The notes under the pieces are model-generated. The model made no database searches. It worked only from the letters and a program-made list of their open reading frames with translations, and had not been told where the DNA came from. 40,884 nucleotides of DNA, taken from positions 1 to 40,884 of the IMG/VR virus record IMGVR_UViG_3300013131_000097; one strand, 5' to 3'. A program made the translations under genes and the position numbers. Position 1 is the stretch's first letter. Each line of letters begins with the position of its first letter. The stretch is from a virus. Of the stretch, positions 552-8,424 are shown piece by piece.

Positions 552-573
552 ATATCTCTCTTATTAATTTATA

Positions 574-1198: not shown

Positions 1199-1222
1199 AT
1201 CTCTTATTTTTTAATTATAAAA

Positions 1223-1469: not shown

Positions 1470-1508
1470 CAGCAGAAATCCGACGCCTTTCGACGCCGGT
1501 CCCTGCCG
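1470..1508 (-). other. Two-tier RNA hairpin with GAAA tetraloop
   Basis: On the minus-strand RNA, CGGCAG pairs with CTGCTG, and inside it CCGGCGTC pairs with GGCGTCGG around a GAAA tetraloop. Several pairs are G-U on the minus strand but would be mismatches on the plus strand, so the structure belongs to the minus transcript. It sits between the ATPase stop and the next ATG with no T-run after it, so it is not a standard terminator. Confidence 0.7.
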
Positions 1509-1519
1509 AGAGATATATT

Positions 1520-2758: not shown

Positions 2759-2780
2759 ATCTCTTATTTTTTAATTTATA

Positions 2781-2829: not shown

Positions 2830-3015
2830 TTAAACTTTTTTCAGGCCTAATTCAGATGCTACGTAATTGACGTGCTTAGTAGTAGTCTGGCTCCATGTAC
2901 CTAATTCTCGGATCGTGCCGGCTTCTAAGTTAATAATGGCTACACAGGTTGTGTATGAAATAACTTGATCTCCATCTATTCGAAGATTCTCTTTGTAACG
3001 ATTCAATTTTTTCAT
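2830..3015 (-). CDS. Small phage protein, DUF8033-like
   Basis: 61 residues from MKKLNRYK. The pattern SYTTCVAIIN ... GTWSQTTTKHVNYVASELGL resembles a widespread short phage family in which a protein transcript level or DNA-related role is unproven (I think DUF8033, not certain). The longer frame from 3048 would translate the hairpin and is rejected; the chosen ATG follows AAAAAGAGAGCAT. It has no promoter of its own, so it depends on the 3083-3490 transcript, and its start lies inside an RNA stem (3013-3081). Confidence 0.8.
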   Translation of the reverse strand: MKKLNRYKENLRIDGDQVISYTTCVAIINLEAGTIRELGTWSQTTTKHVNYVASELGLKKV

Positions 3016-3081
3016 ATGCTCTCTTTTTACGTCCGCATGGGCCAACATTGCTGTGGCCCCGGGACTATGTTGAGAGATATG
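3013..3081 (-). promoter_or_regulatory. Start-codon-sequestering RNA hairpin
   Basis: On the minus RNA, CAUAUCUCUC (3081-3072), directly after the upstream stop, pairs with GAGAGCAUAUG (3023-3013), which is the leader and start codon of the next gene, with only one bulged C. Inside, GUCC pairs with GGAC, and GGGCCA with UGGCCC. A ribosome ending the upstream gene would open the outer stem, so translational coupling is the simplest reading. Confidence 0.7.
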
Positions 3082-3082
3082 T

Positions 3083-3490
3083 TTACTCCTCCGATGCAGC
3101 TTGCTCTGCTTCTATTTGTGCCTCAATAAATCCGTCTGTCTGCGCAGGGACATCTTCATCTTCTTCAACTACAAAGCTTTCAATTGAAGCCGTCACATGT
3201 TCCATAATTTCTCTGACATCAACATCGGCACTAGTCAATGTTATCTCGTTCCTGTAACTAAGTTCAAACTCAGCTGAATCAAAATCAATCAAACTATTTG
3301 AATTGTAATCCAAGCTTCTTTCAATCTTGTCAGCAATCTCCTCTGCTAACTCTTGCGTGATGCCAAACACTTTTTCAACGCGCACCTCAGGCTCCAATTG
3401 CTGGATAAGTGCAATAACATTGTCGATTGATACTACTGAGGTTAGCGCCTTTGCTCCCTCCAACTGCGAAATCAATTGTTCTTTTTTCAT
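3083..3490 (-). CDS. Unknown acidic protein
   Basis: 135 residues, strongly acidic in the C-terminal third (VVEEDEDVPAQTDGF, then IEAQIEAEQAASEE). Mostly helical by eye, no catalytic motif and no recognised family. Start follows AAAAAAAAGAGAGA. A small hairpin GGGA-ATAA-TCCC lies in its 5' leader between promoter and start. It may be translationally coupled to the downstream 2830-3015 gene through the RNA hairpin at 3013-3081. Confidence 0.8.
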   Translation of the reverse strand: MKKEQLISQLEGAKALTSVVSIDNVIALIQQLEPEVRVEKVFGITQELAEEIADKIERSLDYNSNSLIDFDSAEFELSYRNEITLTSADVDVREIMEHVTASIESFVVEEDEDVPAQTDGFIEAQIEAEQAASEE

Positions 3491-3587: not shown

Positions 3588-3809
3588 TTATTCCTCAATT
3601 ATTTCAAATAATTTTTTATCGATAAAGCCAACCGAGCCATCTCCAAACTGTATTTGGATGAATTCTGTTTCAACAATGTCATGTACAATTTCTTCTACCT
3701 CAAATATTTCTCCTTCAACAATTCGCTCTTCTTCCATTAATGGCTCTTCATTGTCATCAAAACCAACACATACCTCAATGTAACAATCTTTCAAAAATTT
3801 AATTTTCAT
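3588..3809 (-). CDS. Small unknown acidic protein
   Basis: 73 residues, very acidic, with a beta-rich pattern (KFLKDCYIEVCVGFDD, EGEIFEVEEIV, FIQIQFGDGSVGFI) that could be a small barrel. No family recognised. Typical left-end gene: own class A promoter and AATAAGAGATATG leader. Confidence 0.8.
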   Translation of the reverse strand: MKIKFLKDCYIEVCVGFDDNEEPLMEEERIVEGEIFEVEEIVHDIVETEFIQIQFGDGSVGFIDKKLFEIIEE

Positions 3810-3834
3810 ATCTCTTATTTTTTAATTAATAATA

Positions 3835-3895: not shown

Positions 3896-4168
3896 TTAAT
3901 TAAGACTTGGGGTAAATCTAGGATCCTCAATAACATCTGCTGTGGCATCTTTACCATGCTGAATGCGTTTGTCAATCAATCCAGCTAACGCTTCCATAAA
4001 CTCTAGCATATCGCCCTTTGCTTTTGCTGTTAAGCCTATTTGAAGGAACATTGCTAATAATTTGAAGTCATCGTCCCCTGTGGTAATAGCTAGGAACTCA
4101 CATTGTGCAACAGCATCTCTAACACTGTCTACTAACGCCGAAGCGGCTCTTTCATTTGCATTTCTCAT
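3896..4168 (-). CDS. Small unknown helical protein
   Basis: 90 residues, alternating hydrophobic and charged residues suggesting a helical bundle (ALVDSVRDAVAQCEFLAIT, MFLQIGLTAKAKGDMLEFME). No family recognised. Own class A promoter and leader. The stop lies in the A-tract that precedes the next promoter. Confidence 0.8.
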   Translation of the reverse strand: MRNANERAASALVDSVRDAVAQCEFLAITTGDDDFKLLAMFLQIGLTAKAKGDMLEFMEALAGLIDKRIQHGKDATADVIEDPRFTPSLN

Positions 4169-4190
4169 ATCTCTTATTTTTTTATATACT

Positions 4191-4345: not shown

Positions 4346-4471
4346 TTATTTTTGTGATAAAACAAATAATGGTAATACACACAATGCACCAACGATTGGA
4401 TTACCCATTGCTAATACAAACATCCCGGTTACTGCTAAACCTACGGATCCGATTTCAACTGCTTTTTTCAT
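4346..4471 (-). CDS. 41-residue membrane protein
   Basis: Reads MKKAVEIGSVGLAVTGMFVL, then AMGNPIVGALCVLPLFVLSQK. Two hydrophobic stretches separated by GNP suggest a membrane hairpin. It has the exact AAAAAATAAGAGATATG leader and a class A promoter, which makes it one of the best-supported genes here despite its size. Function unknown; small phage hairpin proteins include holin or superinfection-type proteins, but no match is claimed. Confidence 0.85.
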   Translation of the reverse strand: MKKAVEIGSVGLAVTGMFVLAMGNPIVGALCVLPLFVLSQK

Positions 4472-4565: not shown

Positions 4566-5306
4566 CTACAAGTATTGCTCCAATAACGTGATGCCTGGCA
4601 TAGCTTGTAATCCTTTCTCAGCCAATCTAACCAATTGACGTGCACGCTCTCCGGTAACACCTAACTCTTCAGCTATCTGCTCCATTGGCTTCGCATACTC
4701 ATAACCGATGCCATAATTCATACACAATGCTACACGCTGCTTCTCAGGTAACTGATTCAATGCTCTTTGCAAATCAAACACAAAGTCTGCCTTGTCTCTG
4801 CTAGACTTGGTAGCCTCAGCTTCTAAGAAGCGATCCGCATATGTTTCTTTGTTGTCATCATCGCCTACTGGTGTGTGGATGCTTTTGGTTGAGAATGCTT
4901 CGGTACCTGTCTTGTGTGAAGGGATCCTAACTACGCGGGATAAATCATTGAGTGCCTTTTGCAACTCGGCTCTGATATACCATACAGCAAATGTAATGAA
5001 TTTAAAGTCTTTGCTAGTGTCAAAGCGTTCAACTGCTTCAAACAAACCTATATTTGCAAATGCAATCAAATCTTCTAACTCTAAGCCCATGCCCTGATAA
5101 CCGCGCGCTACCTGGATTGCAAATCGTAAATTTGCTTTGATTAACACATCGCGTGCTTGAATGTCTCCTGCCTGAGCTGCGATAATTAACGCCTTCTCAT
5201 CTGCTTTGGTTAAGGTTGGTGATTTCTTTGTCTCTTTGACATACTGACGGATACTTGCCGTTTCTGTTACAATTGCTCCGTTACTTACACTAATTCTTTT
5301 TGCCAT
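4566..5306 (-). CDS. Sigma-70 family RNA polymerase sigma factor
   Basis: 246 residues. Region 1.2 is seen as SIRQYVKETKKSPTLTKADE, region 2 as LIKANLRFAIQVARGYQGMG through LEDLIAFANIGLFEAVERFD and FITFAVWYIRAELQKAL, and region 4 as LNQLPEKQRVALCMNYGIGY through PMEQIAEELGVTGERARQLV. The region 3 segment is short and atypical, with an insertion rich in D, K and T. It would direct RNA polymerase to phage promoters; the class A set is the obvious candidate target. Its own upstream region lacks the GGATCGCATTGA element, so it is probably not self-driven. Start follows AATAAGAGAAAGAGTT. Confidence 0.93.
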   Translation of the reverse strand: MAKRISVSNGAIVTETASIRQYVKETKKSPTLTKADEKALIIAAQAGDIQARDVLIKANLRFAIQVARGYQGMGLELEDLIAFANIGLFEAVERFDTSKDFKFITFAVWYIRAELQKALNDLSRVVRIPSHKTGTEAFSTKSIHTPVGDDDNKETYADRFLEAEATKSSRDKADFVFDLQRALNQLPEKQRVALCMNYGIGYEYAKPMEQIAEELGVTGERARQLVRLAEKGLQAMPGITLLEQYL

Positions 5307-5325
5307 AACTCTTTCTCTTATTTAT

Positions 5326-5394: not shown

Positions 5395-5580
5395 TTATCT
5401 TACAAAGCGGGGAGTTCTTTTAGCTTCTTGCTCGGCTCTATAAATTGCATTTCTTTCTGCTTGTGCCATTGCAGCTTTAACAATTGCATTAACTTGTTGC
5501 GGTTTGCGGGCATCTGCTGTGAAGCGACCAATTACTGCATCTTGCTTGTAAAATCCTGAATTACGTGTTCCTTTTGCCAT
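5395..5580 (-). CDS. Small basic unknown protein
   Basis: 61 residues, basic (MAKGTRNSGFYKQDAVIGRF ... EQEAKRTPRFVR), with an Ala-rich helix in the middle. Could bind nucleic acid by charge only; no family recognised. Own class A promoter; the 5' leader holds a small TAGGG / CCCTA hairpin before the AATAAGAGA leader. Confidence 0.78.
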   Translation of the reverse strand: MAKGTRNSGFYKQDAVIGRFTADARKPQQVNAIVKAAMAQAERNAIYRAEQEAKRTPRFVR

Positions 5581-5632
5581 TTCTCTTATTTTTTAAATTT
5601 ATGCTCTAGGGCCTTTCCCTAATTGCTATACA

Positions 5633-6154: not shown

Positions 6155-6346
6155 TTATTTTTCCGGAATGTCTTCCGTGTCATATAACTCATAATCGCCA
6201 TCGCCATTACTGTCAGTAAATGCTTCTTGGAATCCTTTGCCGGACTGCACCATTGCTAATGCTTCTTCTTCCGTCTCTGCTTCTACTTCGAAGTATTGGA
6301 AAATTGTTGCTGGAATTTTTTGTTCAAACTTAAATAACTTTGCCAT
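6155..6346 (-). CDS. Small unknown acidic protein
   Basis: 63 residues. FEVEAETEEEALAMVQSGKG is a common pattern in short phage and plasmid proteins with a beta strand followed by an EEA-L helix; the tail is acidic (TDSNGDGDYELYDTEDI). Function unknown. Class A promoter and AATAAGAGATATATG leader. Confidence 0.8.
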   Translation of the reverse strand: MAKLFKFEQKIPATIFQYFEVEAETEEEALAMVQSGKGFQEAFTDSNGDGDYELYDTEDIPEK

Positions 6347-6371
6347 ATATCTCTTATTTTTTAATTTATTA

Positions 6372-6438: not shown

Positions 6439-6816
6439 CTAATTAAAGCCAACAAACCCTTGTTTCAAATCTAATTCTAAATCTTCGGCAATTTCCTTTA
6501 AGCGATAATAAGGAGCATCTTCTAAATCTTCTTCTACTATGCTAGACACACTAGCTACATCATATCCATACCCGAAGCCATACCCGGTAATAGCTACTTG
6601 TATATCCTTTAAGCTTTTAGGTGCTTCCGAGATCCATTCCATATCAGACATAAACTCTTCTCCCATTTCTGCTTGGAACTTATTGCATGCATCCATCCAC
6701 ATTTGGTGCACTGCGGCTTTAACTTGCTCTGCAACCTGATCATTGTGGTCATACATTTCCTTGCTCCAAGGCTTCGTGATCTCAATTCCAAATTCAACTT
6801 TTTTCTCTTTTTTCAT
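6439..6816 (-). CDS. Unknown protein, 125 residues
   Basis: Acidic, mostly helical protein with a glycine/aromatic stretch (ITGYGFGYGYDVASV) in the middle. No family recognised. Class A promoter and AATAAGAGATATG leader support it. Confidence 0.8.
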   Translation of the reverse strand: MKKEKKVEFGIEITKPWSKEMYDHNDQVAEQVKAAVHQMWMDACNKFQAEMGEEFMSDMEWISEAPKSLKDIQVAITGYGFGYGYDVASVSSIVEEDLEDAPYYRLKEIAEDLELDLKQGFVGFN

Positions 6817-6839
6817 ATCTCTTATTTTTTAATTATACA

Positions 6840-6875: not shown

Positions 6876-7280
6876 TTAGGAAAAAAGTTTGGAAAAAGTT
6901 TTTGCTGTCTTAATAGGCTCTTTAAAGTCATTCTCACGTCCCCAAATCTCAGCTAAGCCACTATGGCCACATTTTGGAGTAACTGTATATAACACGTTGC
7001 CTGTGGTTAAGTCACAAATTCTAAAATCATCATATAACGGGCCATTCAACGGACAATTATTCTTAAAGAACACATACGTTTCCAAAATGTCAATCTGAGG
7101 ATTATGTTTGATAAACGTCTTTACTTGCTTCATCAGGTTCCAGGATTTGCGTTGCAGGCTAGAATCTTTACAAAACCAATCGTAAAAATTATAACATTCA
7201 TCATTACGGCCCGACGAGTCTAATATTAACCCGTTTTCGAATCCATTTAATTGCGTTGCTAAATTTGCTGTCTTTGTCAT
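6876..7280 (-). CDS. Unknown protein, 134 residues
   Basis: Starts at MTKTANLATQLNGFENG, right after AAAAATAAGAGATATG; the longer frame from 7334 would read through the promoter. Cys and aromatic residues are frequent (NDECYNFYDWFCKDSS, CPLNGPLYDDFRICD, CGHSG). No family recognised. Its last residues (KTFSKLFS) are encoded by the A/T-tract element that precedes the next promoter, so coding and regulatory sequence overlap. Confidence 0.78.
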   Translation of the reverse strand: MTKTANLATQLNGFENGLILDSSGRNDECYNFYDWFCKDSSLQRKSWNLMKQVKTFIKHNPQIDILETYVFFKNNCPLNGPLYDDFRICDLTTGNVLYTVTPKCGHSGLAEIWGRENDFKEPIKTAKTFSKLFS

Positions 7281-7303
7281 ATCTCTTATTTTTAAATTAT
7301 ACT

Positions 7304-7393: not shown

Positions 7394-7433
7394 AAAAAAA
7401 GCACCCGGGAATAAGAGAGAAACCCGAGTGCTT
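7394..7433 (-). terminator. Intrinsic terminator with anti-leader loop
   Basis: On the minus RNA, AAGCACUCGGG pairs with CCCGGGUGCUU (one U-G pair), followed by a run of Us (the plus strand has seven As at 7394-7400). The 13-base loop reads UUUCUCUCUUAUU, complementary to the AAUAAGAGA leader of the left-end genes. Confidence 0.88.
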
Positions 7434-7438
7434 AAGCC

Positions 7439-7465
7439 GCCTGGAAATAAGAGAGAGAACCAGGC
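7439..7465 (-). other. Hairpin with anti-leader loop
   Basis: Stem GCCTGG / CCAGGC with a 15-base loop that reads UUCUCUCUCUUAUUU on the minus strand. Stem sequence differs from the terminator hairpin 7 nt away, while the loop is shared, so the loop is what is conserved. Confidence 0.8.
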
Positions 7466-7586
7466 CGGTCCAATGCGTGGTAGGATCAACGGTGTTCGGA
7501 GCGTTGCGGCATCCTGTGGTTGTGATCCTACCGTTACGATCCGCCGGGTGTGTCTGGTTGGAGCACATGTATCCCGGACCCCGTCG

Positions 7587-7673
7587 TTAAATATTCCAAT
7601 TGTCTTGGTTAAAGCGCCAATCCAAGTAAGCACCGATCCCTAATACTACTGCTATTAATATGATTATTTCCAT
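7587..7673 (-). CDS. 28-residue membrane peptide
   Basis: Reads MEIIILIAVVLGIGAYLDWR then FNQDNWNI: one hydrophobic segment with a polar C-terminus. It is the first frame on a short transcript from the class B promoter at 7695-7725 and is preceded by AATTAAGAAGATAAC. The rest of the transcript is the structured RNA 7394-7586, so this may be a dual-function RNA. Function unknown. Confidence 0.6.
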   Translation of the reverse strand: MEIIILIAVVLGIGAYLDWRFNQDNWNI

Positions 7674-7694
7674 GTTATCTTCTTAATTACACTT

Positions 7695-7725
7695 ATATTA
7701 TATGATAACGCGCGCACATATCCAA
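7695..7725 (-). promoter_or_regulatory. Class B promoter for peptide/structured RNA
   Basis: Minus strand TTTGGTTGGATATG, 20 nt between TTG and TATAATAT. This is one of the best matches to the class B form. The expected start near 7688 gives a transcript of about 295 nt to the terminator. Confidence 0.78.
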
Positions 7726-7752: not shown

Positions 7753-8062
7753 ATAGCTAGTGATTCCAACTAAAACCGTTCTAACGGGGCTAAAAATAAG
7801 GCCTGGACTAAAAATAGGACTAAAAATAAGGCCACTTCGTCTAAAAATAAAAGGCTGTTTTTTCTAAAAATAGCCTGAATTTCGTCTAAAAATAACCCGG
7901 GGTGGGGAAGATCTGCTAAAAATGTACGGATATTGCTCTAAAAATAGGACGCTCAATAGCTAGTGATCTGAACATGACCAGCACTACATGCACTATATAC
8001 GCGATACCAGGTTACTCGCTATATACGCAAGATCGCATCTAAAAGCAAAATCACTATATACG
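7753..8062. repeat. Accessory repeats: ATAGCTAGTGAT and CTATATACG
   Basis: ATAGCTAGTGAT occurs at 7753-7764 and 7956-7967. CTATATACG occurs at 7993-8001, 8019-8027 and 8054-8062. They lie between two groups of CTAAAAATA repeats and suggest more than one bound protein in this region. Confidence 0.6.
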
Positions 8063-8424
8063 AGGACTAAAAATAACTGCACATTGGTCTAAAAATAAGG
8101 CCGCTCCTTCTAAAAATAAAACCAGGTTCCGATCTAAAAATAAGGCCACTTCGCCTAAAAATAGCCGATACCCTCTCCCGCGCCATACAGTTCGTTTAAG
8201 AACATCGAGGCCGTTTTAAGGGTTTGAATCCATTAGAACCGTAATATAGAGACTATGCCCCGCGAGACTGCGTAGGACCGGTAGGGAGATATATAACCTC
8301 GCCAGTCTGATGCTACTAGACACTAAACATTGCTTTTATTCTAAAAATGCGTCTAGCACTTTTACTGACAATGCAACTAAAAATAACGTGGGGCGGGGAA
8401 GGTACTAGACTCTGCCTTAAAAAT
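7790..8424 (+). repeat. CTAAAAATA iteron-like array
   Basis: About 15 copies of CTAAAAAT(A), usually CTAAAAATAAGG, start at 7790, 7808, 7820, 7841, 7864, 7886, 7916, 7938, 8067, 8089, 8110, 8134, 8155, 8341 and 8377, with weaker copies at 8039 and 8415. Many steps are 21-24 bp, two helical turns. All are in the same orientation. Longer units recur: GGCCACTTCG before copies at 7841 and 8155, and a GGGGNGGGGAAG block after those at 7886 and 8377. Iterons of a replication origin or a partition site are the best-known elements of this form; the role is inferred. Confidence 0.75.

Follow-up and report, generated by a model that had tools for sequence, protein, structure and literature searches.

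RNAIII of Staphylococcus aureus encodes a small peptide and pairs through its hairpin loops with the initiation region of many mRNAs. The c4 antisense RNA sits on the same transcript as its target. In phages P1 and P7, c4 blocks translation of a phage mRNA through loops that pair with the region around the ribosome binding site, and phage VP882 encodes VpdS, a trans-acting, Hfq-binding RNA that works on phage and host mRNAs (PMC12197685). In Listeria, redundant CU-rich motifs of the LhrC sRNAs, located in a stem-loop, a single-stranded linker, and the terminator loop, bind the initiation region; the UCCC motif of RNAIII is noted in the same paper (PMC4132741).

By analogy, the phage RNA proposed here would work like LhrC, RNAIII, or c4 RNA and would be homologous to none of them, LhrC being the closest in design. 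As in LhrC, CU-rich motifs are found in a loop and in the terminator loop, and in relatives also in the linker. This likeness is one of design only: LhrC is a host RNA whose UCCC pairs with the Shine-Dalgarno sequence, whereas the phage RNA would target the SD-less AAUAAGAGA leader of a phage gene arm, and the LhrC covariance model (RF00616) gave the RNA 19.5 bits (gathering score 110, E 1.4), so that it is not a member. With c4 it shares being a phage RNA with loops complementary to the initiation regions of phage mRNAs. However, c4 has one target and the present RNA faces about 14 mRNAs, most of them with their own promoters; Rfam C4 gave no gathering-threshold hit in the window and was not among the RNA-region matches up to E 5. 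The combination of a small peptide gene with loops directed against many mRNA starts recalls RNAIII, from which the RNA differs in organism, size, sequence, and targets; the Rfam search returned no RNAIII match. Like VpdS, it is phage-encoded and proposed to act in trans, but VpdS binds Hfq and is not built on the common leader of one gene arm. The phage antisense RNAs compared here mostly control single genes; what appears to be new is a single phage RNA that would face a whole gene arm, about 14 genes, through one shared leader.

The phage locus and the architecture of the proposed RNA

We analyzed the complete IMG/VR record IMGVR_UViG_3300013131_000097 (40,884 bases, hereafter the window), in which the minus strand holds nearly all likely genes. 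A search of named phages returned no close relative by DNA. Below 7.3 kb lies the left arm, where small genes form an array. Most of these genes have a class A promoter of their own (TTAGGATCGCATTG...CTTATCTTTA) and an A-rich, unstructured leader that ends in AAUAAGAGA(U)AUG or AAAGAGAGA..AUG. The right arm contains longer genes, among them those for GroEL, thymidylate synthase, and an amidase. Because the class A promoters are of the TTG/TAnnTTT type and the GroEL matches include Bacteroides, Flavobacterium, and Cellulophaga phages, Bacteroidota are the likely host group. A gene for a sigma-70-like factor (4566-5306, minus strand) lies in the left arm and carries AATAAGAGA within its own leader; this factor might read the class B promoters, one of which precedes the proposed RNA. 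From the gene content, class B would be later than class A.

The following features were assigned to the RNA locus:

7697 to 7725, minus strand: class B promoter of the RNA, TTGGAT (7725-7720), a 17-nt spacer, and TATAAT (7702-7697); relatives keep GGTTGGAT...TATAATATAA, and the same class precedes right-arm genes
7394 to 7690, minus strand: proposed structured RNA that would begin at the predicted start, run through the U-tract, and measure about 297 nt (bounded by promoter and terminator; syntenic and conserved among relatives)
7587 to 7673, minus strand: 28-codon ORF for the hydrophobic peptide MEIIILIAVVLGIGAYLDWRFNQDNWNI (coding-type codon changes in some pairs of relatives)
7533 to 7589, minus strand: P1, conserved hairpin domain CGACGGGGUCCGGGA...CCCGGCGGAUCG (covariance model R1, compensatory changes)
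7479 to 7532, minus strand: P3 hairpin, with an ACCACA.../AACAC internal loop in several relatives (folding and relatives)
7439 to 7465, minus strand: anti-leader hairpin H2, stem GCCUGG/CCAGGC, loop 7459-7445 UUCUCUCUCUUAUUU (sequence, folding, relatives)
7399 to 7433, minus strand: anti-leader hairpin H1, which is the terminator stem, AAGCACUCGGG/CCCGGGUGCUU, loop 7422-7410 UUUCUCUCUUAUU (sequence, folding, relatives)
7394 to 7400, minus strand: U-tract of the intrinsic terminator, U7 (sequence)

By sequence, the proposed RNA thus has its own promoter and its own terminator. A preliminary description of this DNA had placed a class B promoter and a strong terminator around a transcript of about 295 nt, with two adjacent hairpins that differ in their stems and have nearly the same loop. 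Both elements were found, bounding a predicted RNA of about 297 nt, and H2 and H1 agree with the hairpins described, UCUCUUAUU being held in the loops of both in the minus-strand RNA. The description had overlooked the 28-codon ORF and the structured P1 domain, and the transcript is not purely non-coding. The whole RNA folds modestly better than its shuffles (z -1.97), and its minimum-energy fold does not show H2 as a separate hairpin. Within 7394-7690 there was no Rfam match at the gathering threshold, the only hit of the window being a tRNA elsewhere.

Complementarity between the loops and the left-arm leaders

The window contains 13 copies of the word AATAAGAGA. Eleven lie on the minus strand, in left-arm leaders, and the other two on the plus strand, in the hairpin loops. 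The 11 leader copies identified in this count are the candidate targets:

7282 to 7290, minus strand: leader of ORF 6876-7279
6818 to 6826, minus strand: leader of ORF 6439-6816
6350 to 6358, minus strand: leader of ORF 6155-6346
5582 to 5590, minus strand: leader of ORF 5395-5580
5314 to 5322, minus strand: leader of the sigma-70-like factor gene 4566-5306, farther from the start codon
4473 to 4481, minus strand: leader of ORF 4346-4471
4170 to 4178, minus strand: leader of ORF 3896-4168
3811 to 3819, minus strand: leader of ORF 3588-3809
2760 to 2768, minus strand: leader of ORF 2534-2758
1200 to 1208, minus strand: leader of ORF 653-1198
557 to 565, minus strand: leader of ORF 357-551

By chance 0.77 copies were expected, and 100 shuffles all stayed below 13. 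When the 297-nt RNA was dinucleotide-shuffled, only 2 of 5000 versions contained two separate anti-leader places of 9 nt. Among the 17 left-arm genes, the loop match spans at least 10 nt in 12 and 9 nt in 2. The preliminary description held that each loop is a perfect 9-nt complement of a leader shared by the genes below 7.3 kb; the complementarity was borne out and the length had to be revised, since most leaders match over 10 nt and one over 11. ORF 1259-1456 is the single case among the 17 with no loop match, and 2 further genes match over 7 nt only. The longest perfect loop complement measures 9-11 nt at 14 of the 17 left-arm starts and at most 6 nt at 51 of the 52 right-arm starts, and the mean duplex energy with the loops is -10.6 kcal/mol at left-arm starts versus -3.5 kcal/mol at right-arm starts (p=2.5e-8). 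The pairing of purine-rich leaders with CU-rich loops could partly reflect composition.

Conservation of loops, leaders, and P1 in related phages

Relatives were gathered by using the sigma factor, the first left-arm gene, and P1 as queries. The RNA is syntenic in more than 15 IMG/VR phage contigs, where it lies upstream of the left-arm array and after TATTTTTAG repeats and the GGTTGGAT...TATAATATAA promoter. The loops remain UCUCUCUUA-like while the stems are replaced (mean identity 0.86 for loops and 0.47 for stems), and loop identity exceeded stem identity in all 55 pairs of 11 representative hairpins. Conservation of the loop with divergence of the stem was the comparison proposed in the preliminary description, and its outcome agrees with that proposal: in relatives the loops stay the complement of the leader as the stems change. 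The complementarity to mRNA initiation regions is both conserved and beyond chance, as expected of trans-acting antisense sRNAs in general.

Across about 90 loci, 17 hairpin loops carried an anti-leader of at least 9 nt and 1 was leader-like. Transcription of the plus strand had been suggested as an alternative, in which the hairpins, whose plus-strand loops do read as leader, would display it as a decoy for a leader-binding factor. However, the promoter, the U-tract, and the small ORF all belong to the minus strand, as do the neighboring genes. G-U pairs also outnumber A-C pairs 23 to 2 across the hairpins, a count somewhat favored by allowing G-U when the hairpins were found, and this excess argues that the minus strand is the functional RNA. 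We regard the decoy as having next to no likelihood. A DNA operator was dropped as a candidate because the structure is conserved as RNA.

The anti-leader is placed differently among the phages. A first group (group A) resembles the window, with one copy in a loop and one in the terminator loop, and L025 and L029 have it in the linker and in both loops. The sequence CAUAUCUCUC, the complement of GAGAGAUAUG with the start codon included, is found in the linkers of L025 and L029 and in the inter-domain stretches of L180 and L203. In L032, the single loop UUUCAUAUCUCUCUCUUAUCAUAUCUCUU complements leader, start codon, and second codon AAA, and two leader copies are matched in one loop; by eye, an apparent tRNA-Met gene lies in the middle of the L032 RNA (L032:2768-3140). 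L012 and L016 each retain a single anti-leader loop on a short stem, and the match in L020 is short and weakly structured. The loop-type pattern of L025 and L029 brought these two and five other contigs. Additional matches to the loop pattern were mostly outside hairpins and were taken as chance, with the exceptions of L195, L201, L203, and L207. A search for anti-leader hairpins around the right-neighbor gene in 80 further loci gave one case, beside a terminator, also taken as chance.

In 16 of 17 phages, the duplex energy of the loops with their own leader surpassed that of every one of 200 shuffled loops; in L011, it surpassed that of 197 of the 200. Shifts of the loop fit shifts of the leader in L013 (loop UCUCUCUUUAC, leaders AAAAGAGAGA) and in L026 and L031 (loop ACUCUCUUAU, leaders AAGAGAGUUAUG). 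In a permutation test of own versus other pairing, run on 8 groups with very similar leaders, complement length gave p=0.052 and energy p=0.105. The clearest case of loop-leader covariation, a single distant one, is L070, which has the other leader ACAAUCAACAAAUG and a 12-bp GC-rich hairpin with the loop UUUGUUGAUUGU; this loop is perfectly complementary to 12 nt of two leaders, and in three others the complement spans 8-10 nt. The hairpin of L070, at 1825-1860, appears to be an independent anti-leader hairpin, the differing leader of this phage reading ACAATCAACAAATG.

These comparisons bear on the possibility that the loops are binding sites of a phage or host protein for UCUCUUAUU, their match to the leaders being a by-product of purine-rich leaders. 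Such sites would likewise leave loops far better conserved than stems, and leaders in this phage group are generally AAGAGA-like. However, the complements in relatives are longer and include the CAU of the start codon, L032 matches two leader copies in one loop, the unrelated loop of L070 matches its unrelated leader, and pairing is far poorer for shuffled loops with the same composition. We therefore consider a protein site improbable and favor pairing of the loops with the leaders.

Covariance model R1 found P1 a single time in each phage of the family and in no other of the 73 sources searched; 100% of cells were paired, and 3 pairs had changed on both sides. Its conservation exceeds that of the anti-leader hairpins, and it would represent a new conserved RNA domain. 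Matches to a P1 pattern in 84,980 prokaryote species genomes were scattered over unrelated taxa, mostly at high-GC sites, and were taken as chance.

The transcript might instead serve chiefly as messenger for a small membrane protein, with the hairpins merely forming its 3' UTR and terminator. ORF 7587-7673 encodes a 28-aa hydrophobic peptide of membrane type, its start lies in a leader-like context, and hydrophobic ORFs of similar size occupy the same slot in L008-L012, L026, L029, L031, and L182. In L013, L020, L032, L201, and L203, however, no small ORF was seen in the 5' slot or the peptide is unrelated, while the promoter, P1 or related domains, and the anti-leader loops persist. This indicates that the 5' slot is exchangeable, and we consider a mainly messenger function very unlikely.

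Proposed repression of the left arm and elements in cis

The promoter class of the RNA (GGTTGGAT-N-TATAATATA) is also present before right-arm genes at about 11,539, 13,938, 16,518, 23,143, 25,241, and 26,524. The sequence evidence makes it likely that a trans-acting antisense RNA represses left-arm translation when the right arm comes on. A structured RNA ending in the terminator would be made from the minus strand, beginning at about 7690 and finishing at 7394, and its two CU-rich loops UCUCUCUUAUU would pair over 9-11 bp with left-arm mRNAs at their AAUAAGAGA(U)AUG leaders. The resulting duplex would mask the stretch beside the start codon, with the start codon itself also covered in several relatives, blocking initiation across the set. 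Because the RNA would be transcribed from the right-arm promoter class, it should accumulate with the right-arm programme, building up as right-arm transcription rises and closing the left-arm programme. Right-arm mRNAs, which have no such leader, would escape, and the two loops would provide redundancy, as in LhrC. The main reading of the preliminary description, in which a single RNA pairs through its loops with the leader common to the left-arm mRNAs, gains support from the anti-leaders of relatives that include the start codon and from the match in L070.

Bacteroidia ribosomes do not use Shine-Dalgarno pairing (PMC9976891). If the host belongs to that group, an open leader should therefore matter and its occlusion should be effective. 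Mimicry of the 16S tail was dropped as a candidate, since Bacteroidia keep the usual anti-SD (PMC9976891) and the loop is unlike it.

The same anti-leader is found in cis within the left arm:

3007 to 3082, minus strand: intercistronic cis element, in which CAUAUCUCUC, immediately behind the ORF 3083-3490 stop codon, pairs with GAGAGCAUAUG, comprising leader and start codon of the downstream gene

Folding predicts this conserved hairpin in 7 of 7 relatives (-28 to -34 kcal/mol), and there is no class A promoter before the gene downstream of ORF 3083-3490. A ribosome finishing at the upstream stop codon would expose the next start, suggesting translational coupling.

The evidence for pairing would be identical if the RNA protected or activated the left-arm mRNAs, for example as a shield against nucleases, to which A-rich, unstructured leaders could be sensitive, or by opening an inhibitory structure. 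However, the complement adjoins or overlies the start codon (in relatives the AUG is included), the cis element uses the same sequence to mask a start codon, and the leaders show no structure in need of opening. Protection or activation thus seems unlikely; repression is the more likely outcome because several relatives cover the start codon and the cis hairpin hides one with the same sequence.

More tentatively, and with slightly less than an even chance of being correct, the leader may serve as a 'barcode' that marks a temporal class of mRNAs. An RNA from the promoter class of the other arm would read it and shut off the whole class, the anti-leader word would be reused in cis to hide starts, and word and complement would change together across phages. 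If true, the phages would possess an early-to-late translational switch made of RNA alone, suited to hosts without Shine-Dalgarno pairing, and a compact way to end one phage expression programme by base pairing alone, with about 14 genes addressed. The leader/anti-leader pair is clean and testable.

Other elements were observed near these features. One of them is located after an ATPase-like gene, and the gene that follows has its own promoter in most relatives:

1470 to 1517, minus strand: 3'-UTR element of the ATPase-like gene, UAUCUCUC with the GNRA-capped hairpin GGCGUCGAAAGGCGUC, conserved in relatives

Upstream of the RNA promoter, the gene-poor region 7790-8393 (minus strand) contains 13 one-strand copies of TATTTTTAG. 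Similar arrays are present in relatives, and this one is possibly a replication origin or a regulator-binding array. Within this region, a hairpin-like sequence at 8278-8309 (minus strand) has UAUAUCUCC in its loop region and is kept in L008.
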